From assembly GCA_018242605.1 (NCBI GenBank), contig JAFEBP010000004.1, positions 287,655-351,654 on the forward strand: DNA of 64,000 bases. The letters run 5' to 3'. Positions 16,535 through 29,987 of this stretch are shown in pieces; the first letter of the stretch is position 1, and each line of letters opens with the position of its first letter. The translations under genes were made by a program, and so were the position numbers. This stretch comes from Planctomycetota bacterium (GTDB lineage Bacteria > Planctomycetota > Phycisphaerae > Phycisphaerales > UBA1924). The notes below the pieces were generated by a model that was not told the origin of the DNA, did no database searches, and saw only the letters and a list, made by a program, of their open reading frames with translations.

Positions 16535-17926
16535 TCAGGTCTTGGAGCCCGCCGGTTCCATCGCGGGCTGCTGGGCTGCTTCGCGGGCCGCCCGGGCTGC
16601 ATCGAACGCCGCGGCGGCCGCCTCGATGCTCTTCTTGCGTGCCACCTTGATCGCGATGACGCCGATGAACGCCGCGAGCATCAGCGTCAGCACGTAGACG
16701 AATCTTGCACGCAGCAGGGTGATGCTGGCCCCGAGCGTCGCGAACATCGCGGCGATGGCGTAGAGCGAGAAGACCGCGCTCTTGACCCCGCCCGTGGCCC
16801 GCTTGATCATGTGGTGCAGGTGCTGGTCGTCGGCCGCGGAAATCGCCTTGCCCTCCATCTTGCGACGGACGATCGCCAGGGCGGTGTCCATGATCGGCAG
16901 GGCGTACATGATGAGCCCGGCCAGGACGATCCACGTCTTGCCCGTGTCGCCGAGCGTCAGGATGATGGCGCAGGTGCAGAACCCCAGCATCAGGCTCCCG
17001 GCGTCGCCCAGGAAGATCGTCGCGGGGTTGAAGTTGTGCGGCAGGAATCCCAGGCACGCCCCCAGCAGCGCCAGGCAGAGGACGATGCGTTGGGCGTCGC
17101 GCATGCCGTCGTCGACGAGCGCCAAGCCGAGCGAGACCACCAACAGCCCCGCCGCGGTGATCGCCGTGGTGCCGCTGAGCAGGCCGTCGAGCCCGTCGAT
17201 CAGGTTGCTCGCGTTGCACAGGCCCAGCACCGAGAACGCGATGATGCCGGTGCCGACCCAGTACACAAAGTCGATCGGAATATGGTCGATCCCCGGGATG
17301 CCCAGCGGCAGCGGGATGTTCAGCAGCACCGTCTCGTACCCCTGGTGCATGGCGATCGGGATTCCGATCGTTCGCGCCACGGGCAGCATCAGGCCCGCGG
17401 CCAACTGCACGCCGACGTTGTCCACCGCCAGCGCCGCAGCGGCGATCAACTGCCCGCCGATCTTCACGCGCGGGCTGATCCCGGAAACGTCGTCGATCAC
17501 GCCCACGAGCATGATGACGGTGAGCCCAAGAAGGATCGAGAGCGGGACCGGGGCGTGGATGCCCTCCATGCTCAGGAACTTCGTGGGGTGCCACTGGATG
17601 AGCAGGTTGTCAGTCTTGACCGCCACGTACGAATAGAAGATGCCCGCCAGGATGCCCAGGTACACCGCCACGCCGCCCAGGTAGGCGATGGGCATTCGGT
17701 GGACCTTGCGGGACTCGCTGGGACGATCGATCACGCCGTTGGCCACGGCCATCCGTCGCATGATCGGCGTGCAGATGAGCGACACGAGGAAGGCGATGAC
17801 GAGCACCCCGATGTACCCCTCGAAGATCGAGAGCCGCGAGGCCGGCTCGGCCTTGGCCGGGGATTCCGCCACCGTGTGCGCTGAAGGTTCCAGCGGGAAG
17901 AGGGATTGGAGGAGAGTCAGAATCAA
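16535..17926 (-). CDS. WecA/MraY-type polyprenyl-phosphate sugar-1-phosphate transferase
   Basis: This integral membrane enzyme (463 residues from the TTG) transfers a sugar-1-phosphate from a UDP-sugar to a polyprenyl phosphate carrier, the first step of a lipid-linked glycan. Family motifs are clear: VGVIDDVSGISPRVKI (Mg-binding DD), ASNLIDGLDGLLSGTTAIT, NFNPATIFLGDAGSLMLGF, and the cytoplasmic HLHHMI histidine motif. About ten membrane helices are visible, plus an alanine-rich cytoplasmic tail. I prefer the TTG at 17926: it overlaps the upstream stop as TTGA and has GGAG 8 bases before it. A GTG at 17992 would add 22 residues and overlap the epimerase by 70 bases. It is the last gene of the exopolysaccharide operon and may start its glycan. 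Confidence 0.85.
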   Translation of the reverse strand: MILTLLQSLFPLEPSAHTVAESPAKAEPASRLSIFEGYIGVLVIAFLVSLICTPIMRRMAVANGVIDRPSESRKVHRMPIAYLGGVAVYLGILAGIFYSYVAVKTDNLLIQWHPTKFLSMEGIHAPVPLSILLGLTVIMLVGVIDDVSGISPRVKIGGQLIAAAALAVDNVGVQLAAGLMLPVARTIGIPIAMHQGYETVLLNIPLPLGIPGIDHIPIDFVYWVGTGIIAFSVLGLCNASNLIDGLDGLLSGTTAITAAGLLVVSLGLALVDDGMRDAQRIVLCLALLGACLGFLPHNFNPATIFLGDAGSLMLGFCTCAIILTLGDTGKTWIVLAGLIMYALPIMDTALAIVRRKMEGKAISAADDQHLHHMIKRATGGVKSAVFSLYAIAAMFATLGASITLLRARFVYVLTLMLAAFIGVIAIKVARKKSIEAAAAAFDAARAAREAAQQPAMEPAGSKT

Positions 17927-18987
17927 CGCTTCGTCTCCGGGTGCGACACGGCACGCCAGTCGATGGGCGAGCCCTTGCCCCCCGATATCCACGATGCCAC
18001 GTCCGCGATCGTCTGCTCCAGCGTGATCGAAGGCTCGAACCCCACCGTTTCACGCACCCGCGTCAGATCGGGCTTGCGACGCAGCAGGTCCTCGAATCCC
18101 GCGGCGTAGGCATCACTGTATCGGATCATCGCCACTCGGGATTTGCTCGCGGTGATGCGGATCACGGCGTGGGCCAGTTCGGCGATCGTAAGCACACGGT
18201 CTGATCCCACGTTGAACACCCGCCCCCTCGCCGCCGGGCTGGCCATGAGCGTCGGCAGGATCGCGGCCACGTCGCGCACGTCGCAGAAGCACCGCGACTG
18301 CGAGCCGTCGCCGTACACCTCGATGGGGGCGTGCGCCAGGGCCCGCTCCACGAACCGGGGCAGCACCATCCCGTGCTCGCCCACCTGGCCGGGGCCCACC
18401 GTGTTGAAAAACCTTGCCACCACGATCGGCAGCCCGCGCTGCTGGCCGTACGCCAGGGCGAGGTGCTCGTCCAACGCCTTGCTCATCGCGTAAGACCAGC
18501 GAGATTTGGTCGTAGGGCCGTACACGACATCATCGTCCTCGCGGAACGGGATCGCCGTGGACTTGCCGTACACCTCCGAGCTGGACGCGATCAGCGTGGG
18601 CGCCGGCGCGCCCCCGGGCCCGCGCTCCGCCGCGAACCGCAGTAACGCGGACGTCTGGCTCACGTTCGTCTCGATCGAGGAGATCGGGTCGGCGATGATG
18701 AGCGACACCCCCACCGCGGCGGCGAGGTGGTACAGCTCATCGAACGTCTCGCCCTTGCCGAACGCGCCCAGCGCGTGGGAGAGGTCGGCCTCGATGAACC
18801 GCAGTTGCTCGTGGAACTCGGGGAGGTTGATCCGCCGTCCGGTGGAGAGGTTGTCGACCACCGTGACGTGGTCTCCGCGAGCGAGCAGATGGCGCACGAG
18901 GTGCGCACCGATGAACCCGGCGCCCCCGCTGACGAGGCAGCGGCGACGCCTGGACGGCTGGGGGTTGGCCGCTGACGCGTGGGCCAT
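17923..18987 (-). CDS. NAD-dependent sugar-nucleotide epimerase/dehydratase
   Basis: This is a 354-residue extended short-chain dehydrogenase. The NAD-binding GGAGFIGAHLVRHLL is at about 20-34, VVDNLSTGRR follows the second strand, and the catalytic S/T...YxxxK is SSSEVYGKS then YAMSK. FFNTVGPGQ and the YGDGSQSRCFCDVRDVA segment are typical of UDP-glucose 4-epimerase and UDP-glucuronate decarboxylase relatives; the exact substrate cannot be fixed. It should supply an activated sugar to the exopolysaccharide made by this operon. It overlaps the wecA-like gene by 4 bases, and 12 bases separate it from the BY-kinase gene. Confidence 0.85.
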   Translation of the reverse strand: MAHASAANPQPSRRRRCLVSGGAGFIGAHLVRHLLARGDHVTVVDNLSTGRRINLPEFHEQLRFIEADLSHALGAFGKGETFDELYHLAAAVGVSLIIADPISSIETNVSQTSALLRFAAERGPGGAPAPTLIASSSEVYGKSTAIPFREDDDVVYGPTTKSRWSYAMSKALDEHLALAYGQQRGLPIVVARFFNTVGPGQVGEHGMVLPRFVERALAHAPIEVYGDGSQSRCFCDVRDVAAILPTLMASPAARGRVFNVGSDRVLTIAELAHAVIRITASKSRVAMIRYSDAYAAGFEDLLRRKPDLTRVRETVGFEPSITLEQTIADVASWISGGKGSPIDWRAVSHPETKR

Positions 18988-18999
18988 CTGGGACGCAAC

Positions 19000-21204
19000 T
19001 TACGCCTTGGCGTACTCCGACGCCGTGCGGATGTTGCCCTTCATGTAGCCGCCGCTGGAGGCGCGGACACCGTTGACGACAACGCCCAGGAAGTCGCTCT
19101 TGGCGCTGGCGAACTCGTTGCTGATGCGGGCGACCATGCCGCGCTTGTCGCTCATCGCACGGACAACCAGGATCGTGGCGTCCACGCGCTGGGAGATCGC
19201 CACGGCGTCGCCCGCGACGACGGCGGGGGCCGCGTCGTAGAGCACCACGTCGTAGTGGGCCTTGGCGTAGTCGTTCAGATCGCCCTTGGCCTGCGCCGCC
19301 AGACGCTCGACGACGCGCAGTTCCTTGCTGCCCGCCGAGATCAGATCCACGTTGGGGGCGCTGGTCTTCTGGATGACGTCCTGGATCACCTTCTGTCCCA
19401 TGAGCACGTCGGCGATGCCGGGAGATTCCTGGAGGCCGAAGACCCGGTGCAGCGAGGGACGCCGCAGGTTCGCGTCCACCACGAGCACGCGCTTGTCCGC
19501 CGCGGCGAGCGCGAGGGCCAGATTCGCGATCACCGAGGTAGCGCCCGCGCCGGGCATGCCCGAGGCGATCATGATCGTCTTGTGGCCGGCGTGTTCGATG
19601 CGCTTGAGCACGGCCGAACGCAACTGGCGGTACGACTCGGCGACCACGCCCTTGGGCCGGTCGCGGAAGGCCGTCTCGGCGGCGCCCTTGCCCTCGGGAT
19701 CTTCCGCCGCGTCGGGCACCCAGCCCAGCAGGCGGCCCTTGGGGATGAGGTTGATGTCCGAAGGGCCCTTGATGCGCTGATCGGCGATTTCGCGGAGCAC
19801 CACCACGCCGCCCACCAGACCCAGGCCCATGATGATCCCCAGCGGGATCATGAACTTGAGCTGCGGGAAGGAGAGTTCCTGCGGCACCTTCTCACGCTGG
19901 TATTCCACCACGCGGTTGGAAGTCTGGAGGTTCGAGACCGTGATGATCTCCTGCAGGCGGCCGTTGTTGTCGGCGCGGGTCTTGAGAAGATTGTCCACCT
20001 GCAGATCGATGTCCTTGATTTCGCTGGCGATGCTGGTGATCGTGACCAGTCGCGTGCGGGCTTCGTCGAGCTTGCGGTTCAGGTCGTTTTCCTGCGCCTG
20101 CAGGCTGTCGACGTTCTTGCGCAGGGTGTCTAACCGCGCGTCGAAGAGCTTGCGCTGCACCTTGACGAGCGTGTCGTCCAGGTTCTGGCGGGCCCCGTCG
20201 ATGCGGGCCTTCATCGCCTGGTATTCGCGGTGATCCCGCGTCCGGGTGGTGAGCATCGCCTGCAGTTCGCTCTCCATCCGCGACAGGGTGGTCCGCATGT
20301 CCAGCACGGTGGGATCGCGCTCGGCCTCGGCCTTGATCTCGTCGTTGAAGTTGAATCCCTCGGGGTTGGAGATGTCCGCCGCCATGCCGTTCTTCTGCGA
20401 GAGCGTGGCGGTCAGATCCTGTCGGGTCTTGATGATTTCCTCCTGCAGCCGCTGCACCTGCTGCTGGGCCGCGCCCTGGGATTGCTCGATCGACTCGAGG
20501 CTGTTCTTATCGATCAAGCTCTTGCGGCGGGTCTGGAGGTCGGCCACTTCGCGTTCCACGCGGGCCAGCGCGTCCCGCAACGACCTGGTGCGGTCGTCCT
20601 TCTGCGAATCGCCGTCGGCGGCGATCTTGGCGAGGTACTTCTCACGCACCAGCCCCACGATCGCCGTTGCGTCTTCTCGGTTGCGGTCGCTGTACGACAA
20701 CTCAAGCAGCGTCGTGTTGGGGTAGTTGCGGACCGAAACGTCGTCGCGCAGCGCCCGCAGCGCCCGGGCGGAGTTGTACACCTCAGCGCCCGTTCCCGGG
20801 TCCTTGCGCGAGTAGTACTTGCACCACGCGGGGGCCAGCTTGGGGAGCTGGGGATCCTCCACCACCTTCTGCAGCACGGTGTCGGAGGTCATGATCTTGA
20901 TCTGCGTCTGGATGAACCGGTTCATTTCTTCCGGGTTCACCATCGCCGTCTGGCCGATGGTCTCCATGGGCGGGTTGCAGTTGAACACCGCGATCGGCCG
21001 CCACCTGGGGTACATCGACTCCAGAGCGAAGTTCGCGCCCGCGCCGAACAGCGCGCCGGAAGCGGCGCCGGCCACCAGCAGCCATTTGTGGCGGTTGAGC
21101 AGCTTCACGGGGTCGATCGACGCGCCCGAGACCGGGGGGCCGACCGTCATCGCTTGCCGGGGCGGGCCCATCACGGCCGGGGGAGTTGTGGGGACTGTGG
21201 TCAT
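19000..21204 (-). CDS. Wzz/BY-kinase fusion for exopolysaccharide export, Walker A degenerate
   Basis: This 734-residue inner-membrane protein combines a chain-length regulator with a cytoplasmic bacterial tyrosine kinase domain. The Wzz part has a first membrane helix at about 43-63, a long periplasmic coiled coil (roughly 195-440) and a second helix around LKFMIPLGIIMGLGLVGGVVVL. The kinase-like part runs from about 515 to the end: SYRQLRSAVL, then GMPGAGATSV at the P-loop, VLVVDANLRRP at Walker A' and DVVLYDAAP at Walker B. The P-loop lysine is replaced by Ala555, and the second Asp of Walker A' by Asn. Only two tyrosines occur in the last 20 residues, where active BY-kinases usually carry a cluster. 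It may be a pseudokinase that still regulates chain length. Confidence 0.87.
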   Translation of the reverse strand: MTTVPTTPPAVMGPPRQAMTVGPPVSGASIDPVKLLNRHKWLLVAGAASGALFGAGANFALESMYPRWRPIAVFNCNPPMETIGQTAMVNPEEMNRFIQTQIKIMTSDTVLQKVVEDPQLPKLAPAWCKYYSRKDPGTGAEVYNSARALRALRDDVSVRNYPNTTLLELSYSDRNREDATAIVGLVREKYLAKIAADGDSQKDDRTRSLRDALARVEREVADLQTRRKSLIDKNSLESIEQSQGAAQQQVQRLQEEIIKTRQDLTATLSQKNGMAADISNPEGFNFNDEIKAEAERDPTVLDMRTTLSRMESELQAMLTTRTRDHREYQAMKARIDGARQNLDDTLVKVQRKLFDARLDTLRKNVDSLQAQENDLNRKLDEARTRLVTITSIASEIKDIDLQVDNLLKTRADNNGRLQEIITVSNLQTSNRVVEYQREKVPQELSFPQLKFMIPLGIIMGLGLVGGVVVLREIADQRIKGPSDINLIPKGRLLGWVPDAAEDPEGKGAAETAFRDRPKGVVAESYRQLRSAVLKRIEHAGHKTIMIASGMPGAGATSVIANLALALAAADKRVLVVDANLRRPSLHRVFGLQESPGIADVLMGQKVIQDVIQKTSAPNVDLISAGSKELRVVERLAAQAKGDLNDYAKAHYDVVLYDAAPAVVAGDAVAISQRVDATILVVRAMSDKRGMVARISNEFASAKSDFLGVVVNGVRASSGGYMKGNIRTASEYAKA

Positions 21205-21284: not shown

Positions 21285-24200
21285 TTAACGCTCGGCTTCC
21301 TTGCGGACAGCCTCATAGCCGGCCTTGGCCGCATCACTGATCTTGGTGGGGTCCTGGTCGATCGCCTTGCGGATTTCCTTGCACGCATCTCGGGCCGAGG
21401 CCTTGTCTTCGAGTTTCAAGTGCGCCTGGACGACCCGCGTCGCGAACCGCACGGTCTGCTCCGGGTTGCTCGCCAGCAGCAGGGCTCGCTTGTAGTAGTT
21501 GAGCGCGTCGGCGTACCTCTTGTTCGCCATCATCACCGTGCCGGCGGTCTCCTGCACGTCGGCCACCGCGGGCGCCAGTTTCACGGCCTTCTCGGCCAGT
21601 TCCACTGCGTCCGCGGCGTTGTCGAGCTTGTCGGCCAGCACGAACGCCATGTTGTTGTTCATTTCCACGTCCTCGGGGAACACGCCCAGGCCTTCGCGCA
21701 TCACGCGAGCCGCTTCGGCGTACTCCTCGGACGCGATCAGCGCCGAACTCACCGCCCGGAACAGCAACTGCCGGATCGAGGCGTCCTTGGCCTTGGCCAA
21801 CAGGTCGCGGGCCGGCTGCACCGCCGCCTTGCGGGTGTTCACGTCGTCAAGGTTCGCCACCACGCGGAAGTACTCGATCCACTCCTGCGCCTGCGACGCG
21901 GCGGCCATCCGGCCCGTCTCGTCCAGGTACGCCAGCAGCGTCTCCTTCTTCGTGATCAGGCGGCGCAGGTCGTTGAACCACGCCAGCATGATCGTCGGCT
22001 CGTCGGTCCGCAGCAGCTTCAGCGCGTCACGCGCCGCGGCCGCCGCCTCGACCTGCTTGCCTTGCCTCATGCTCAGCTTGGCCACCGCCATCAGGAATCC
22101 GGGGTTCGTCTTGATGCGATCCGGGCCCATCTTGGTCAGCACGCGCGTCGCCTCGGCGGTGTCCGCGCCCTGCCCGATCAGCAGCGAATCGAGGTATCGC
22201 TGCGCGATCCGATCGTTGGGGTCGATGTCGAACGCCTGTTTGTAGAACCGGCATGCGTCCTGGTGATCGTCCGAACTGGCGAAGATCTGGCCGATGGTGA
22301 TCATCGCGTTCACGTCCCGGGGCCGCTGCGCGATCGCCTGGTTCGCCACGTCCAGCGCGTCGGCCGTGCGGCCCAGCCGCACGAAGTCAGCCACCAGGCC
22401 GTAGAGCAGATCGTCGTTGCCGGGGGCCAGCTTCAGAGCCTGCCGCAGATCACGCACACCGTCCTCCACCTGGTCGGCGGAGACGTACGCCGCGGCACGC
22501 AGCCGGTACGGCTGCCAGAGGTCGGGCCGCAGCTGGATCGCCTTGGTGAAATCGGCGATGGCGTCGCGAGCGAACTTGGGGTCCGCGAGCATCGCCTGCC
22601 CGCGCTTGATGAACACGGTCGCGTCGCCCGGGAACTTGGCCACCGCCAGGTCCAGCAGTTCTCGTTGGCCGCGGGCGTCCTTGAGCCCGGCCTTGCAGTC
22701 GGCCAGCAGCAGGAGGTTCGTGACGTCGGAGTCCTTGCCGGCGTTCATCGCCTCCAGTTCCTTCTGCGCTTCGGCGAAGTTGCCGACCTTGATCAGGCAC
22801 TCGGCCATCCGCTGGCGGTACACGTTGTCGGGGTCGGCGCCGGCGGAGATGATTCGCCGGCAGACGTCCACCGCCGCCTCGTTGTTCCCCAGCCGCATCT
22901 GAAGGTCAACGATCGACTTGTCCGCCTCGGCGATCTTGGGGTCCTGCAGCGCGCGGGCCTTGTCGAGCACCGCGCCGGCCCCGTCAAAGTCCTTACGCTG
23001 CACGAGGAACCCTGCGTACTGCAGCAGCGGGCCGACCGTGGGCTTGTCCTTGTTGATCTTGGCGATGTACGCCTCGATGATCGAGCGGGCCTTCTCGCGC
23101 TCGCCCTGCTCCCAGTTCCACGCCGCGTCCAGGCCCACGACGTCCAGACCTTCCTGGAGCTTCGCGGCTCGATCGATCAACGGCCGGGCCTTGGCCCAGT
23201 TGCGTTCCTCGATGTACAGGTTCGCCAAGATGAGGAGGTTCTCGCGGTCGTTCGGCGAGTTCTTCGACATCGTTTCGCGCCGCTCGATCGCGGTGGTCTT
23301 GACGCCCACCGCGGCCTCGAGGCCCAGCCAGATGTTGATGAAGTTCACATCATCGCGGCCGTACTTCTCGCTCTCGCGGGCGAACGTCAGCGCCTCGTCT
23401 TTACGTCCCAGCGACACCAGCGAGGTCAGCAGGTCGTTGATGGCGCCGATCTCGCCGGGCCGCAACTGCACGGCCCTGCGGAACGATTCGGCCGCGTCCG
23501 CGGGCTTGCCCGCGAACCGCTCCATGCGGCCCTTGAGCCGCCAGGTTTCGGGCAACGCGCCGCCCTTGGCCACCGCCGCCTCCATCGCCGCCACGGCCTC
23601 GGGGTAGCGGCCCTCGGCGGCGTGCAATCGGGCCCGGAATGTGAGTCCGTCGGCCTCGTCGGCGTTCTGCTTGGCGGCCTGATCCGCGAGCGTCTGGGCC
23701 ACGTCAAACTTCTTGTCGTCGATGGCGTCCAGGAACCGGAACTCGATGACTCGCTTGTCGTCTGGCGCCGCCTTCACGGCGAGCTCGAGTTCGTCGCCCG
23801 CCTCCTTCAGCTTGCCCGCGCCGCGGTACGTCGCGTACCGGGCGAGGATCTTGTCCAGGTCCGCGACTTGACTCGCGTTGATCTGGGCGATGCGGGCCGA
23901 GAGCGGGTCGTCGCTGCTCGCCGCCAACTGGTAGTCCTTGAGTTCCTTGGATTCGGGGTACTTCTCGATCGCCTTCTTCACCAGGTCCAAGGCCTTGGCC
24001 TTGTCCCCGGCCCTCAAGTAGGCGTTGCTCAGCGACACGACCAACCGCCAATCCAGGTTGTTCTTGACCACCTCACGCTCGAGGAACGGGATCAGCTCCT
24101 CGGGACGGGCCTGCTGTCCCGGGGGCGGGTTGAGCATGCGGTCGGCTTCCACGAGCACTCGCTGGATCGGGTCCACCGCGGCGTCCTTCTTCACGACGCC

Positions 24201-25859
24201 CTCGATGCGCTCCTTGCGCGCCTTGAGCTCGGGGTTTTCGGGCATGATCTGCAGAAGCCGGTCGTACAACTCCAGCGCCTTGTCGTAGTTCTGCAGGCGG
24301 GTCTGAACGTCCGCGAGCACGAACGACGCCTCGAGCTTGTTCGGGGCGATCTTCAGCAGCTCCTCCAGGCGGTCTCGCGCGAGGCCCAGCTGATTGATCT
24401 TGTCCGCGATCATCGCCGACAGGAACAATGCGTCGGGGTTGGGCCGCTTGCTCGTGGCCTTGATGTACTGGTCAAGCAACCGGTTGGCCTTCGCCAGATC
24501 ATTCTCGGCGAAGGCGAGGTGGCCGTCCACCAGCAGCATCTCGGGCGCGTCGGACTGGTACACGCCCGCCAGACGCGAACGGAACTCCTTCGCCAGCGCG
24601 ATCGCCTTGGCCTGCCCGGCCTTGTCCGACTCCTTCACCAACTGAAAGGCCTTGCCCGCGTACAGCGCCTGGAAATACAACGCGTTGTTCTTGATCGGGA
24701 ACAGCCTCAAGCCCTTGAGAGACGTCGTCGGGCGAGGAAGGTCCGCGATCTTCTGGAGCTGGTCGATCGCCGCCGAGTAATCGCCGCGAGTGGACATGAT
24801 CTCCGCCCTCGCGCCCATCAGCTCCGCGTCGTCGGGGCGCTTCTCAAGGGCGATGCGGCAGATCTCCTCCACCCGAGCGCCGCGGGAGGCCGGGTCCACC
24901 AGTTCCTCGATGCGCCTGAACTGCATGATGAGCAGCGTCGTGAGCCGCGAGGCGTCCGCGGCCTTGGCGAGCTGGAGCACCTGGTCCAGTCGCGGCTTGG
25001 CGATCTGCTCGAGCTTCTTGACTTCTTCCTTCTGCTCGTCACGCGTCATCTTGGACGTCGCGAGCTTCTCCTGGAAATCCACTTGCCACTTGTTCAGATC
25101 CCGCATGAGCGCCATGAGCTGCATCAGCGGGTCCTGGGGGTTCTTGGTGGCGTACTCCGTGACGAGGGCTTCGGCCTTGGCCCGCAGCGCCTTGGCTTCA
25201 TCCATCGCGCTCTTGGCCGCCGCGCGGTCCGCCATGATGGAGTACAGCGCCTGGAGCGTCGCGATTGACTCGGAATCGGTCGGGTCCGCGGCGATCGCCG
25301 CCAGCAGGTCGGCCTCAGCCTCCTTGGCCGTTTCGATCTTGGCGTCGGGGGTCATCGCGAACGCCTGCTGCTTCGCGTGGCCGCGGAAGCGCCGGATGGC
25401 GTCCCACTTGCCGCCCTTTTCGTCCGCGGCGTGCAGGGACACGACCATGTCGGACTCCGACACGTACGAATCGACGCTCTCGGTATCGCGGATGATTTCC
25501 AGGTACTCGGCCTGCGTCTTGAGGTCATCCTTGCGGACGCGGGCCAGCTGGCGCGTGGCCATCTTGTACTGGTCAAAGTAGTTCTTGTACTGCACCGGAG
25601 TGTCGGCCGACACTTTCTTGAGCGTGTCCCGCCACTTCTCCAGGTTGATCGTGTTCGTCTGCTCCTTGTTCACCGCCTTGGAGTAATACTCGATCGCCTT
25701 GGGGAAATCGCTCGCCGCCACCGCGCGGTCGCCGGCCTTCGCGAGGTCCTTCGCGGAGTTCTTCAGGAGGTAATACGCCGAGCCGGCCACCACGCCGAAG
25801 GCCAGGAACAGGCCCACGGACAGCGACACGACAAACTGCTTATTCACACGACCGGCCAT
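21285..25859 (-). CDS. giant TPR-repeat membrane-anchored protein of the exopolysaccharide operon
   Basis: This 1524-residue protein has a single N-terminal membrane anchor (about 8-31, VVSLSVGLFLAFGVVAGSAYYLL) followed almost entirely by tetratricopeptide-type helix pairs. Repeats such as ALELYDRLLQIMPENPELKA, AIADFTKAIQLRPDLWQPY and ALNYYKRALLLASNPEQ are easily read. Its topology is periplasmic if the positive-inside rule holds. It resembles in place and build the TPR protein PrsT of proteobacterial exosortase/EPS loci (known), though it is larger; orthology is inferred. The ATG at 25859 has GAGGAG 7 bases upstream; a TTG two codons earlier is less likely. A likely role is scaffolding of the secretion or assembly machinery. 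Confidence 0.88.
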   Translation of the reverse strand: MAGRVNKQFVVSLSVGLFLAFGVVAGSAYYLLKNSAKDLAKAGDRAVAASDFPKAIEYYSKAVNKEQTNTINLEKWRDTLKKVSADTPVQYKNYFDQYKMATRQLARVRKDDLKTQAEYLEIIRDTESVDSYVSESDMVVSLHAADEKGGKWDAIRRFRGHAKQQAFAMTPDAKIETAKEAEADLLAAIAADPTDSESIATLQALYSIMADRAAAKSAMDEAKALRAKAEALVTEYATKNPQDPLMQLMALMRDLNKWQVDFQEKLATSKMTRDEQKEEVKKLEQIAKPRLDQVLQLAKAADASRLTTLLIMQFRRIEELVDPASRGARVEEICRIALEKRPDDAELMGARAEIMSTRGDYSAAIDQLQKIADLPRPTTSLKGLRLFPIKNNALYFQALYAGKAFQLVKESDKAGQAKAIALAKEFRSRLAGVYQSDAPEMLLVDGHLAFAENDLAKANRLLDQYIKATSKRPNPDALFLSAMIADKINQLGLARDRLEELLKIAPNKLEASFVLADVQTRLQNYDKALELYDRLLQIMPENPELKARKERIEGVVKKDAAVDPIQRVLVEADRMLNPPPGQQARPEELIPFLEREVVKNNLDWRLVVSLSNAYLRAGDKAKALDLVKKAIEKYPESKELKDYQLAASSDDPLSARIAQINASQVADLDKILARYATYRGAGKLKEAGDELELAVKAAPDDKRVIEFRFLDAIDDKKFDVAQTLADQAAKQNADEADGLTFRARLHAAEGRYPEAVAAMEAAVAKGGALPETWRLKGRMERFAGKPADAAESFRRAVQLRPGEIGAINDLLTSLVSLGRKDEALTFARESEKYGRDDVNFINIWLGLEAAVGVKTTAIERRETMSKNSPNDRENLLILANLYIEERNWAKARPLIDRAAKLQEGLDVVGLDAAWNWEQGEREKARSIIEAYIAKINKDKPTVGPLLQYAGFLVQRKDFDGAGAVLDKARALQDPKIAEADKSIVDLQMRLGNNEAAVDVCRRIISAGADPDNVYRQRMAECLIKVGNFAEAQKELEAMNAGKDSDVTNLLLLADCKAGLKDARGQRELLDLAVAKFPGDATVFIKRGQAMLADPKFARDAIADFTKAIQLRPDLWQPYRLRAAAYVSADQVEDGVRDLRQALKLAPGNDDLLYGLVADFVRLGRTADALDVANQAIAQRPRDVNAMITIGQIFASSDDHQDACRFYKQAFDIDPNDRIAQRYLDSLLIGQGADTAEATRVLTKMGPDRIKTNPGFLMAVAKLSMRQGKQVEAAAAARDALKLLRTDEPTIMLAWFNDLRRLITKKETLLAYLDETGRMAAASQAQEWIEYFRVVANLDDVNTRKAAVQPARDLLAKAKDASIRQLLFRAVSSALIASEEYAEAARVMREGLGVFPEDVEMNNNMAFVLADKLDNAADAVELAEKAVKLAPAVADVQETAGTVMMANKRYADALNYYKRALLLASNPEQTVRFATRVVQAHLKLEDKASARDACKEIRKAIDQDPTKISDAAKAGYEAVRKEAER

Positions 25860-25916
25860 TCGCAAACTCCTCGTTCGATCGTGCGGGAACAGGGCCGAGC
25901 CCCGACCCGCGCGTCG

Positions 25917-26846
25917 TCATTTGATCTTCTTGTCAACCGCCGATGATGCACCAGGTGCCTTGAGGGGGTTATCGGGTGGATATTCGCCCGACTCCACTTT
26001 CACCCAATCGGGTGTGCACCGCATGATCTCGGGGAAATACTCGTCCAGGAACGCCGCCGCGTATTTCGCCAGTTCTTCCGGCGATTCGACGTTCTGGCTC
26101 TTGAACTCGACCTTCATGTAGTAGGAATACGTGTCTCGCAGGTTGAACGCCAACAGGCGAACCTCCTCCGCCCGCGATACCAACCCGCCGTTGGCGATGA
26201 AGAAGTACCCCGCGTAGATCGGGTGCGCCCCTTCGCCTGAGAACTTCATCACCCGCAGCTTCACCTTGTCCGCGTCTCGCGGCAGTCGGACATAGGTCCC
26301 TTCCAGATCCGTGTACCTGGGATTCGGGTTGGTCGCGTCGGGGTTGTTGTACTGAGTCTTGGCCCTGTACACCTTGCCGCGGCCGTGCACACCCGGGGTG
26401 TCGTCCTCGAGCCAACGCGAGGTATCCACGGGAAGGGCGATGTCGCCGATGACGGACTCCAGTTGCAGACCGGCCCCGACCATGCAGCGGTCGGGCACGT
26501 GCGGGACGGTGTCGATCATCCCGGTGTAATACGCCGCGTGGAAGTCCAAACGCACCGGCTGCTGGCCCTTGGCGGGTACCTTCTGTTCGTACACGCGCGA
26601 CACGTAGTTGGTCGTGCCGAGCACTTCCTCGATCTCCGGGGCCATGCGGTAATCGGCTCCAAGGCGGATCCACGAAGGGCTCTCGGACGGGATCGCCGAG
26701 GCCTGCCGCCCGCCCTCGGCGTAGATCTTCTCCTTGCGCAGGTACAGCTTGAAGTACTTGATCCCCGCGCTCATGCCCAGCGCGGCCGATCCCAGCACGC
26801 ACAGGGCAACGAGAAACGCCGGACGCCGCAGCACGCCGAGGCTCAT
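25917..26846 (-). CDS. EpsI-like exosortase-associated protein
   Basis: This 309-residue protein has one N-terminal membrane helix (about 9-30) and a globular periplasmic domain. The segment YYTGMIDTVPHVPDRCMVG, the later PIYAGYFFIANGGLVSRAEEVR and the LRDTYSYYMKVEF stretch fit the EpsI/DUF3485 family, which is encoded beside or fused to exosortases (known). Its ATG overlaps the stop of the exosortase gene by 4 bases (ATGA), so the two are made together. The molecular role of EpsI is not established; a part in processing or polymer export is inferred. The C-terminus is lysine rich (VDKKIK). Confidence 0.68.
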   Translation of the reverse strand: MSLGVLRRPAFLVALCVLGSAALGMSAGIKYFKLYLRKEKIYAEGGRQASAIPSESPSWIRLGADYRMAPEIEEVLGTTNYVSRVYEQKVPAKGQQPVRLDFHAAYYTGMIDTVPHVPDRCMVGAGLQLESVIGDIALPVDTSRWLEDDTPGVHGRGKVYRAKTQYNNPDATNPNPRYTDLEGTYVRLPRDADKVKLRVMKFSGEGAHPIYAGYFFIANGGLVSRAEEVRLLAFNLRDTYSYYMKVEFKSQNVESPEELAKYAAAFLDEYFPEIMRCTPDWVKVESGEYPPDNPLKAPGASSAVDKKIK

Positions 26847-27805
26847 GCGGCACCCCCGGCCTTGGCCTTGGGATCATCCTGTTCGTCCACGATCCGGTTG
26901 AGCGCCCACACCACCGCCATGAACAATCCCAGGCTCGGGAAGAGCAGCAGCGTGCCGATGAGCATGTGCGCATCGCCCGCCGCGAAGTTCATGTTGATCA
27001 GGCCGAGCAGCCCCAGGGCCGCGACCCGCACCACGTTCATCAGGATCGCCACCGGCCCGGCCAGCAGCATCAGCGCGATACGCTGCCACCAGTGCCTGCA
27101 GCTCAGCAGGGCCACCGCGCCGGCGAGGGCGAAGAACGCCACGACCATCCGCATGCCGGAGCACGCCTCCGCCACGTTCATCTTGTTGCCCGCCACGGTC
27201 AGCGTGTTGCCGGATAGCTCCACGACGAACCCGAAGATCGACCCGATCACGCTCAACACCAGCCACGCGCCCTTGGAGGCCATCAGCTGCAGTTGAAACG
27301 TGATCTTGATCATGATCTGCTCGGCCAGCGTGATGCTGAACAGCAGGTACGCGATCGGCAGGAACAGGTGCCTGAAGATTCCCGTGCCCACCAGCAGCAG
27401 CGTCATCGCTCCCAGCGTGAGGACCATCGCCGCGCCCTGGAGCATGTGGTTGGGCACGCCCACCACGAAGAAGAAATAGCACATCACGCCCAGCATCATG
27501 GGCGCCAGAGCGGGCCAGAATGTCCGCGGCTGCTCGCGCAGGATCGCGTCACGCGACTTCCAGATGAGCGCCGCGCTGATCAGCGGGATCACGTACGCGT
27601 GCCCCCAGTCCTCCATCTTTTCCGAACTGTGCTCGTGCTGCTTCCAGATCCACCTGAAAAACAGCGCGATGAACGCCACGCCCAGCAGCGCCATCCCCGC
27701 CCACGCTTCGGCCGACACCCCGGCCCGCGCGGCACGCGCCCCCGACGCCGTCCTTTGGAGGGGCGCCTTCGCGGTGGTGTTCTGCTCTGTCGCGGCGGTG
27801 CTCAT
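26843..27805 (-). CDS. exosortase/archaeosortase family protein
   Basis: This is a 320-residue polytopic membrane transpeptidase-like protein. The three catalytic positions of the exosortase family are present: C215 in NVAEACSGMRMVVAF, R260 in MNVVRVAALGLL, and H280 in AAGDAHMLIGTLL. About eight membrane helices are visible after a hydrophilic N-terminus of about 30 residues. Exosortases remove C-terminal PEP-CTERM-type signals and probably attach the protein to a surface polymer (known for the family). No classical PEP-CTERM protein is encoded in the window, so its substrates are elsewhere or carry a variant signal. It is cotranslated with the EpsI-like gene. Confidence 0.9.
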   Translation of the reverse strand: MSTAATEQNTTAKAPLQRTASGARAARAGVSAEAWAGMALLGVAFIALFFRWIWKQHEHSSEKMEDWGHAYVIPLISAALIWKSRDAILREQPRTFWPALAPMMLGVMCYFFFVVGVPNHMLQGAAMVLTLGAMTLLLVGTGIFRHLFLPIAYLLFSITLAEQIMIKITFQLQLMASKGAWLVLSVIGSIFGFVVELSGNTLTVAGNKMNVAEACSGMRMVVAFFALAGAVALLSCRHWWQRIALMLLAGPVAILMNVVRVAALGLLGLINMNFAAGDAHMLIGTLLLFPSLGLFMAVVWALNRIVDEQDDPKAKAGGAA

Positions 27806-27918: not shown

Positions 27919-29547
27919 TTAGTTCTGGCGGACCGCCTCGGGCGGCGGCCCGAAGATGTCGTTGCCGAAGTTCCTGTCGATCACCAGGCCCCAGCCGTAG
28001 TTCACGCGGAACCCGTTGCGGATCACCGCCAGCGGGTACGCCCAGAAGTTGGTGCCGATGTTCACCCGGTCGTTGGGCTTCAAGTACACGTCCGGCTGCT
28101 GGCGCTGCGAGATCGCGCGGATGTCCAGGCGGATCGTCGCTTCGCGGTCCGTGCCGAGCATGCGGGTCAGATCGACCTTCGTCGGGATCGCGATGTCGCC
28201 GGGGCCGCCCGCGGCGTCGATCGCCCGCAGCAGCGTCATCCCGCCCGTCGAGGGAAGCTGGATCGGACCCGGACGGCCGATCTGGCCGGCCATGTACACA
28301 AAGCCGGTCGGCGGCTGGGGGATCCGGATCACATCGCCGGAGCGCACGATGATGTTGTACGCCTGATTGCCGGCCAGAAGTTGCTTGACCGGCACCTTGA
28401 TCACGCGCTGCGCCATCAGGTCCTTGGCCTTCATCGGCCCGCCCGCCGCCGCGCTGTCCGCTGCCGCCTTCGCGGCGTTGAGCTGGACCCATTTGCCGTT
28501 CAGGAACACCCAGGAGTTCGCACCGCCCGGCTGCGTGGGCGTCTTCGCGGCGGGCACGTCCACCAAGTCCACCGGCGGTGGCGCCATGTTGTCGGGCCCG
28601 GCCCGGACGGCGTATCGCACGCCCCCGCCCCCGGCGGGCATGACGCCCGGCGACGGTTGCTTCGGCGGTGCGGTGTCTTTCGCGCCCGGCCCTGTGATGT
28701 CGTTGATGACATCCAGAATGTCCTGGCCGGACTTGGGCGGCGTCTGCTGCGCCGGGAGCGGCGCGGGAGTGTTTCCGTTGGGATTCATCGGCGCCGGCGT
28801 GCCGCCCTCGGGCAACGGCCGGTCTGTCGCGGAATCGGTGAGGGCGACCTGTCGGATGACGTATATTTCGGAGACGCTCTCGTCGAACCGTCCGCCGGCG
28901 GTGATGGCCTCAAGCAAGCGGAAGTTGGAGCCCGGCACCACGTACTGCCCGCTCCGCTCGACGTTGCCCACGATGTAATACGTGTTGCCCCGTCCGTTCA
29001 CCACATTGATCTGCGCCAGCGGCGAGTTCACAAACGCTCGCATCGCCTGTTGAATGTCGTTACGGGCCTGCTCCAGCGACTTGTTGCCCACCTGCACGCG
29101 GCCCAACTGCGGCAGGTCCACCATGCCGCGGGCATCGACCACCACCTCGTAGTTCTCGGGGCGATCGGTCACGATCATGTCGTACAGCGTGATGGTCAGA
29201 GCGTCGCCCGCCGTGATGATGTACGAGGACGGCTGAGGCAAAAGGTCCTCGGCCATCGGCTCGGTGGCGGAACCAACTCCGGTGTCGTCCTCCTCGATCG
29301 CGGCGATGCGGTCCAGCACCGGCACGATCGTCGGTGTGTTTTCCCAGTTGCCGACGATGCTGGGGTTCATGAACGAATCGCGGCACCCCCCCATCAGCAG
29401 CGTCAAACCCGCCAGCGTTCCTGCCGCGGCGCGCAACGCCAACCGCCGATGGTCGCCTCGAGGCCGGGCGTCAAGGCCGGCGGGCTGATGCTCTGAGAAC
29501 CGTCCATCCGCAATCGGCTCTTTCTGCATGGCACAACTCACTGACAT
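27919..29547 (-). CDS. polysaccharide export lipoprotein, Wza-like with SLBB domains
   Basis: This is a 542-residue outer-membrane export protein. The N-terminus is arginine rich and ends in a lipobox (LTLLMGGC, Cys near residue 54), suggesting lipidation. A Poly_export domain follows (YIITAGDALTITLYDMI ... VDLPQLGRVQVGNKSLEQAR). An SLBB segment comes next (YYIVGNVERSGQYVVPGSNF), then a long Pro/Ala-rich insertion (about 255-370) and a second SLBB-like segment (FVYMAGQIGRPGPIQLPSTG). It forms the channel through which the exopolysaccharide leaves the cell. The ATG at 29547 is preferred: GAGGG lies 7 bases upstream. It is the first gene of the minus-strand operon, so the leader before it may control the whole set. 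Confidence 0.86.
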   Translation of the reverse strand: MSVSCAMQKEPIADGRFSEHQPAGLDARPRGDHRRLALRAAAGTLAGLTLLMGGCRDSFMNPSIVGNWENTPTIVPVLDRIAAIEEDDTGVGSATEPMAEDLLPQPSSYIITAGDALTITLYDMIVTDRPENYEVVVDARGMVDLPQLGRVQVGNKSLEQARNDIQQAMRAFVNSPLAQINVVNGRGNTYYIVGNVERSGQYVVPGSNFRLLEAITAGGRFDESVSEIYVIRQVALTDSATDRPLPEGGTPAPMNPNGNTPAPLPAQQTPPKSGQDILDVINDITGPGAKDTAPPKQPSPGVMPAGGGGVRYAVRAGPDNMAPPPVDLVDVPAAKTPTQPGGANSWVFLNGKWVQLNAAKAAADSAAAGGPMKAKDLMAQRVIKVPVKQLLAGNQAYNIIVRSGDVIRIPQPPTGFVYMAGQIGRPGPIQLPSTGGMTLLRAIDAAGGPGDIAIPTKVDLTRMLGTDREATIRLDIRAISQRQQPDVYLKPNDRVNIGTNFWAYPLAVIRNGFRVNYGWGLVIDRNFGNDIFGPPPEAVRQN

Positions 29548-29987
29548 AAGTAACCCTCTCGCCCGAGAAAACACCCGAACCCGGGTCGGGCGCAGTTTAG
29601 ACCGATAACACAAACCCCGTCCCTGAACGGGTGCGACAAGGGTAGCAACCTTCCAAACAGAATACTCCCGGCATGGCCGGCGAAGGTGGAACTACACATG
29701 CCGGGAACATCCTTGGTTCCCGGACGGTCTGCATCGACCGAGAAGGTAGGGCGCAATGAACGGGAAGTGAGATTTTCGCGCTGCGCCGCAGCCCCTTGAT
29801 CAAGCCAGATTCCGCCGGGATATTGGACTCACCGGGCTATGGTGTCCTGCCCTCTCTCCGAAAGCCCACCTACGTCGGTGGCACCGAGATTGTTTGGATA
29901 ACCGCCGAATAGGCGGGTGAATTCCTCAACTACGAACCGACGGGCTCGCCATCCAAGTTGGTGCCACGCGTTCCCTACCATTCCTCG
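29548..29987. promoter_or_regulatory. 440-base divergent region with structured leader of the exopolysaccharide operon
   Basis: This gene-free stretch separates the minus-strand exopolysaccharide operon from lipA. On the minus strand it carries two overlapping perfect hairpins. One pairs 29701-29708 with 29716-29723 (8 bp); the other pairs 29666-29675 with 29697-29706 (10 bp). They share bases 29701-29706 and cannot form together. A third hairpin (5 bp, CCCGT/ACGGG around 29617-29633) lies nearer the gene. I saw no canonical promoter pair and no match to the c-di-GMP riboswitch consensus. A regulatory role is inferred. Confidence 0.5.

Follow-up and report, generated by a model that had tools for sequence, protein, structure and literature searches.

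The window (the whole stretch of 64,000 nucleotides analysed here) contains the gene of a 734-aa Wzc-like PCP-2a protein (19000..21204, minus strand), the core gene of this study, whose BY-kinase domain is degenerate: an alanine stands at the position of the Walker A lysine. This raises the question of whether the gene is damaged, whether it encodes a kinase with an unusual handling of nucleotides, or whether it is a conserved pseudokinase.

The protein and its motifs

The gene frame starts with ATG at 21204 and ends with a stop at 19000. The motifs named in the first-pass annotation were all found, while the strand of the gene had to be corrected to minus, the plus-strand frame at 19000-21204 being a chance by-product. 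The Walker A motif SGMPGAGATS (residues 548–557; 19534..19563, minus strand) indeed has A555 at the lysine position. Walker A', VLVVDANLRRP (residues 573–583; 19456..19488, minus strand), reads D577-A578-N579, with N579 at the second-Asp position, and thus departs from the DxD of canonical BY-kinases. Other features of the domain remain, as was suggested at first pass: Walker B, YDVVLYDAAP (residues 651–660; 19225..19254, minus strand), with the invariant D657; the octamerisation motif EX2RX2R formed by E523, R526 and R529 (19618..19638, minus strand); and matches to the BY-kinase/ParA-MinD superfamily at about residues 516–719 (Pfam, NCBIfam). The last 28 residues have only two tyrosines, Y720 and Y731. 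Both are invariant and belong to the C-terminal tail GGYMKGNIRTASEY (residues 718–731; 19012..19053, minus strand), together with K/R722 and N724.

The score by TIGR01007, the model for polysaccharide biosynthesis tyrosine autokinases, is 118.4 bits, exceeding the curated cut-off of 108.05. TIGR03018, the XrtA-associated tyrosine autokinase of NCBIfam, describes the same domain in an exosortase setting, and here the protein is far below the cut-off (119.5 bits vs 230.65). The Pfam Wzz match is weak (residues 34–116, 19 bits, under the cut-off). The nearest solved sequences found by sequence search are BceF, CapAB and Wzc.

A single-chain structure model based on 7 sequences (mean pLDDT 74, pTM 0.40) features membrane helices at 40–64 and 447–476, long arms at 176–430 and the kinase-like domain. 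The latter aligns with CapAB (Z 28.4, 230 residues, 2.4 Å) and with the Wzc kinase domain (Z 28.2, 236 residues, 3.0 Å), whereas the rmsd of the full-chain model to Wzc K540M is near 15 Å, the domain orientation being unreliable. As modelled, the layout is that of a PCP-2a (Wzc-like) protein, with two transmembrane helices around a periplasmic helical domain and a C-terminal BY-kinase fold; the PCP and the pseudokinase domain are fused in a single 734-aa frame. The layout of two transmembrane segments, helical arm and BY-kinase, the EX2RX2R motif and Walker B are common to this protein and E. coli Wzc. However, Wzc has K540 and an intact Walker A', and about five tyrosines of its tail are phosphorylated; in the family considered here the lysine position is occupied by A, T, V, S, G or C, Walker A' is DxN, and most members have two tail tyrosines.

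Loss of the lysine in related proteins

We searched 61 relatives, nearly all of which yielded a long match, and added samples from sister orders and from the phylum. The resulting alignment of 163 kinase domains comprises an order-level, Phycisphaerales-like clade of 67 proteins lacking the lysine, to which the window protein belongs, a sister lineage from the same class (54), conventional DxD kinases of the phylum (31), and 11 other domains. The latter, including paralog L002 from the same genome, are divergent P-loop proteins with the lysine intact.

In the lysine-less clade six small residues replace the lysine at position 555: A in 26 proteins, T in 21, V in 7, S and G in 5 each, and C in 3. 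N579, Gly554, Thr/Ser556, D657, E523, R526, Y720 and Y731 are present in all 67 proteins, the first Asp of Walker A', D577, in 60, and R529 of the octamer motif in just 48. The conventional kinases have the lysine and the second Asp of Walker A' in 31 cases out of 31, and 4–11 tail tyrosines; two tail tyrosines, rather than a canonical tyrosine cluster, are found in the window protein and in 53 of the 67 clade members. The loss of the lysine is real and not a chance event, since the lysine is absent from all members of the clade and from none of the 31 conventional relatives. The lysine is absent clade-wide, whereas both tail tyrosines, Walker B, the octamer-motif core and the fold itself are invariant; the sequences thus lend support to the conserved pseudokinase proposed at first pass. 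It had also been suggested that orthologs with an intact GK[ST] would overturn this reading. No such protein exists among the 67 of the clade, and there the objection fails; it holds for the sister lineage, where the lysine is mostly present.

Indeed, residue 555 in the sister lineage is K in 37 proteins, R in 15, T in one and C in one. N579 (54/54), Y720 (53/54), Y731 (54/54) and Y728 (53/54) are conserved, so that the Walker A' Asn and the GGY...Y tail are common to both groups. Hence the Asn, taken at first pass as a sign of inactivity, does not prove it: lysine-bearing sister proteins with otherwise strict motifs have DxN as well.

Several other positions changed together with the lysine. 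S548 occurs in 37/37 lysine-bearing sister proteins and 24/67 members of the lysine-less clade; P631, in 37/37 and 4%; Y728, in 36/37 and 2/67. The conventional kinases, too, are strict at S548 and P631, and have Y728 in 21/31, their tails being poorly aligned. This relaxation of S548, P631 and Y728 alongside the lysine suggests lost catalysis. At that, the tail of the lysine-less clade has acquired new constraints, K/R722 (66/67, compared to about 35% in the lysine-bearing sisters and about 6% in the conventional kinases) and N724 (64/67), and therefore seems to be re-purposed around two tyrosines rather than simply degenerating. Four or five tail tyrosines are still seen in L049, L058, L059, L061, L062, L064 and L066 from this clade, consistent with a gradual loss after the lysine had gone. 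In L036-L040 and L051, also from this clade, the first Asp of Walker A' has disappeared too (VGAN or VGGN), which is a further step of decay.

The phylogenetic tree was constructed after removal of the lysine, Asn and tail columns; it is unrooted, comes from a quick search and has weak support at many forks, but the SH-aLRT support of the lysine-less clade is 98. It requires three origins of the lysine-less state, the clade itself, L081 and L156. Arginine at the lysine position occurs in one supported family of twelve proteins and three scattered ones. The family (L138, L141, L151, L154, L157-L159, L161, L164, L166-L168), from the sister lineage, has GEGRTT and retains the third tail tyrosine; it is a possible intermediate. 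When all DxN proteins were constrained to be together, the likelihood was better than that of the quick tree without constraint, and the constraint was not rejected by the AU test (p 0.81). Every lysine replacement seen is in a DxN protein; the 31 DxD proteins have none. On the simplest account, the Asn and the GGY...Y tail had a single origin and preceded the loss of the lysine. The DxD form is general among BY-kinases, and since it is taken as ancestral in this unrooted tree, the order of decay apparently was the Walker A' Asn first, followed by K555, S548, P631 and Y728.

Genomic context

The gene lies in an operon with the following neighbours, all on the minus strand: a Wza-type polysaccharide export protein (Poly_export and SLBB; 27919..29613), identified by its family match and conserved as a neighbour of the PCP gene; an exosortase of the EpsH family (26843..27805, 320 aa from ATG at 27805); an EpsI-like protein (25917..26846; DUF3485 with 23.1 bits, below the cut-off of 26.1); a TPR protein of 1526 aa that resembles PrsT but scores well below the cut-off of the PrsT model (21285..25865); an NAD-dependent sugar epimerase/dehydratase of the SDR type (17923..18987); and a WecA/MraY-like polyprenyl-phosphate glycosyl-1-phosphate transferase (Glycos_transf_4; 16535..17992). 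Matches to Wza, the exosortase and EpsI flank the gene in every examined locus of 15–20 kb, both lysine-less and lysine-bearing; the exception is L179, ended early by a contig end. In the same loci the TPR gene is usually present beside the PCP gene, and the SDR and glycosyltransferase genes were detected mainly in the lysine-less clade. In L183, L186, L187 and L189 the exosortase and EpsI-like matches are in one open frame of 610–753 aa, so that these genes, which are distinct in the window, appear to be fused there.

The genome has two exosortases, about 35 PEP-CTERM signals that exceed the cut-off and, elsewhere, three Wzy_C-type proteins. From these families we infer that the operon assembles and exports a polysaccharide and that this is linked to the sorting of surface proteins. 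Chain-length control by the window protein itself, mentioned in the first-pass annotation, would follow from its family by analogy.

It had been proposed to check the genome for a second, intact BY-kinase. No protein other than the lysine-less one exceeds the TIGR01007 cut-off in this genome, which is about 87% complete, so that the absence is provisional. A single match is also seen in many genomes of the clade, among them G001 and others that are nearly complete. Because of that, an active partner BY-kinase provisionally does not seem to be generally available. A 760-aa Wzz/P-loop protein (L002/L172; G000:C32:129652-131373) is encoded at the second exosortase locus. It has an intact GDGKT and a Walker A' of the form DFD-LVGR, lacks both EX2RX2R and the tyrosine tail, and is below the BY-kinase cut-off; it is a second kind of non-canonical PCP. 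Proteins L072, L074 and L076-L080 from the relatives resemble it. LMW phosphatase genes were considered as a marker of the phosphorylation cycle and dropped: they are present in 61 genomes out of 61 and hence uninformative.

Possible roles of the lysine-less protein

We consider it rather probable that the window protein is a pseudokinase relative of Wzc that acts as an octameric, phosphorylation-independent export scaffold, a naturally occurring counterpart of the laboratory mutant Wzc K540M. This is the best reading because the lysine is naturally absent, and the rest of the pocket and the tail are conserved. Wzc forms an octamer when its tail is unphosphorylated and situated in the active site of the neighbour, and phosphorylation dissolves the octamer. 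The lysine-less domain would be unable to transfer phosphate efficiently, and the protein would stay octameric and non-phosphorylated, as Wzc K540M does, with the GGY...Y tail of each protomer docked in the pseudo-active site of the next one. Such an octamer could keep the helical arms in the periplasm poised for Wza, providing a scaffold for export and chain length that does not depend on phosphorylation. The assembly would then be controlled by partner binding, the level of synthesis or the nucleotide state, and not by a kinase/phosphatase cycle. The pocket may still hold a nucleotide as a structural ligand, probably MgADP or MgATP.

Several observations on known proteins bear on this mechanism. 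The K540M mutant of Wzc forms stable octamers and still binds MgADP (PMC8285477), and was used to isolate the stable Wza–Wzc channel (PMC12881504). ADP-Mg was present in the crystal of CapA1B2 K55M although none had been supplied (PMC3795738). Pairing of the P-loop lysine with the Walker B Asp helps to hold the open, inactive state (PMC8517177); because of this pairing, loss of the lysine may favour the closed, octamer-compatible state. EcpK, a BY pseudokinase, is required for exopolysaccharide (PMC12004946).

Other observations speak against the scaffold. The pocket does not look simply decaying, as Gly554, Thr/Ser556, Walker B and, in 60 of 67 proteins, the first Walker A' Asp are retained. 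Further, phosphorylation cycling is considered necessary in E. coli, so that an octamer which never dissociates would have to be released in some other way. Finally, R529 is found in 48/67 proteins, and the single-chain model has pTM 0.40.

The same invariance of Walker B, Gly554 and Thr/Ser556 is what a kinase or ATPase that is still active, if unorthodox, would exhibit, in which the nucleotide is handled by other basic residues or, in trans, by K/R722 of the neighbour's tail. The rise of K/R722 in the lysine-less clade, with N724 appearing alongside, fits this reading, as do the isolated lysine losses of the sister lineage, L081 and L156, which also have K or R at 722. However, this co-occurrence amounts to two or three independent comparisons, without statistical support; the relaxation of S548, P631 and Y728 in the same clade suggests lost catalysis; judging by the sequence, R477 is close to the membrane, and conventional kinases often have R682 too. 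Hence we regard an unorthodox enzyme as unlikely. Altered nucleotide use, the second alternative of the first-pass annotation, may still be entertained, given the invariant Gly554, Thr/Ser556 and Asp657 and the retention of MgADP binding by the lysine-to-methionine mutants of Wzc and CapB (PMC8285477, PMC3795738).

The switch could also be kept if another cellular kinase phosphorylated Y720 and Y731 in trans. Both tyrosines are present in 67/67 proteins, and L002 of the same genome has an intact GDGKT. However, the features of L002 listed above are not those of a BY-kinase, several lysine-less genomes have no second match, and the sister lineage likewise conserves Y720 and Y731 fully or almost fully, Y728 being the further conserved one; structural docking is a simpler explanation, and trans phosphorylation seems quite improbable. 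Still less plausible is that the P-loop lysine has moved to the tail, so that K/R722 of GGYx[KR]xN would enter the neighbour's site and the octamer would complete a shared nucleotide-binding or weakly catalytic site. As for relocation within the same chain, the alignment of the lysine-less clade contains no new invariant basic residue near the P-loop in sequence. A decaying gene or sequencing error, which a lone genome with Ala at the lysine position could have simulated, is hardly conceivable, given that the frames and the operon are intact and that 67 proteins, spread over many genera and families, are alike in lacking the lysine.

Pseudokinases of the BY type are established for EcpK and proposed for HfsB (PMC12004946). 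EcpK/EpsV of Myxococcus xanthus and HfsB/HfsA of Caulobacter are similar to our case in that a BY fold without catalytic residues is a proposed scaffold for PCP-2 (PMC12004946). However, EcpK and HfsB are separate proteins partnering PCP-2, whereas the window domain is fused to its PCP; EcpK has neither Walker motifs nor tail tyrosines, and HfsB lacks both the catalytic residues and a Tyr-rich tail (PMC12004946). In the window family the loss of catalytic residues is partial: Walker B, most of Walker A and A', and the two invariant tyrosines are kept. Fused PCP-2 BY pseudokinases, e.g. SMc01795, Mlr8439 and VV1_2305, all proteobacterial, were described by Cuthbertson et al., as cited in PMC12004946; going by that description rather than by sequence, they too have the PCP and the pseudokinase in one polypeptide. 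CapB1 of S. aureus and PtkB of B. subtilis are also inactive BY-kinases with a proposed pseudokinase role (PMC3795738), but they accompany an active paralog (PMC3795738), and none was found in the genome considered here. Thus the family differs from the known BY pseudokinases in its phylum, the fusion within an exosortase operon, the partial, stepwise degeneration and the invariant tail tyrosines. Our literature search found no paper describing a lysine-less PCP-2a family in Planctomycetota.

Annotation based on TIGR01007 would mislabel this apparently inactive protein as a tyrosine autokinase. Current models of export by Wzc-type proteins are built on cycles of phosphorylation. An entire clade in which the machine persists and the reaction has apparently been dropped suggests that such cycles can be dispensed with or replaced, and since the sister lineage holds intermediate states, the loss of the lysine can be studied stepwise.
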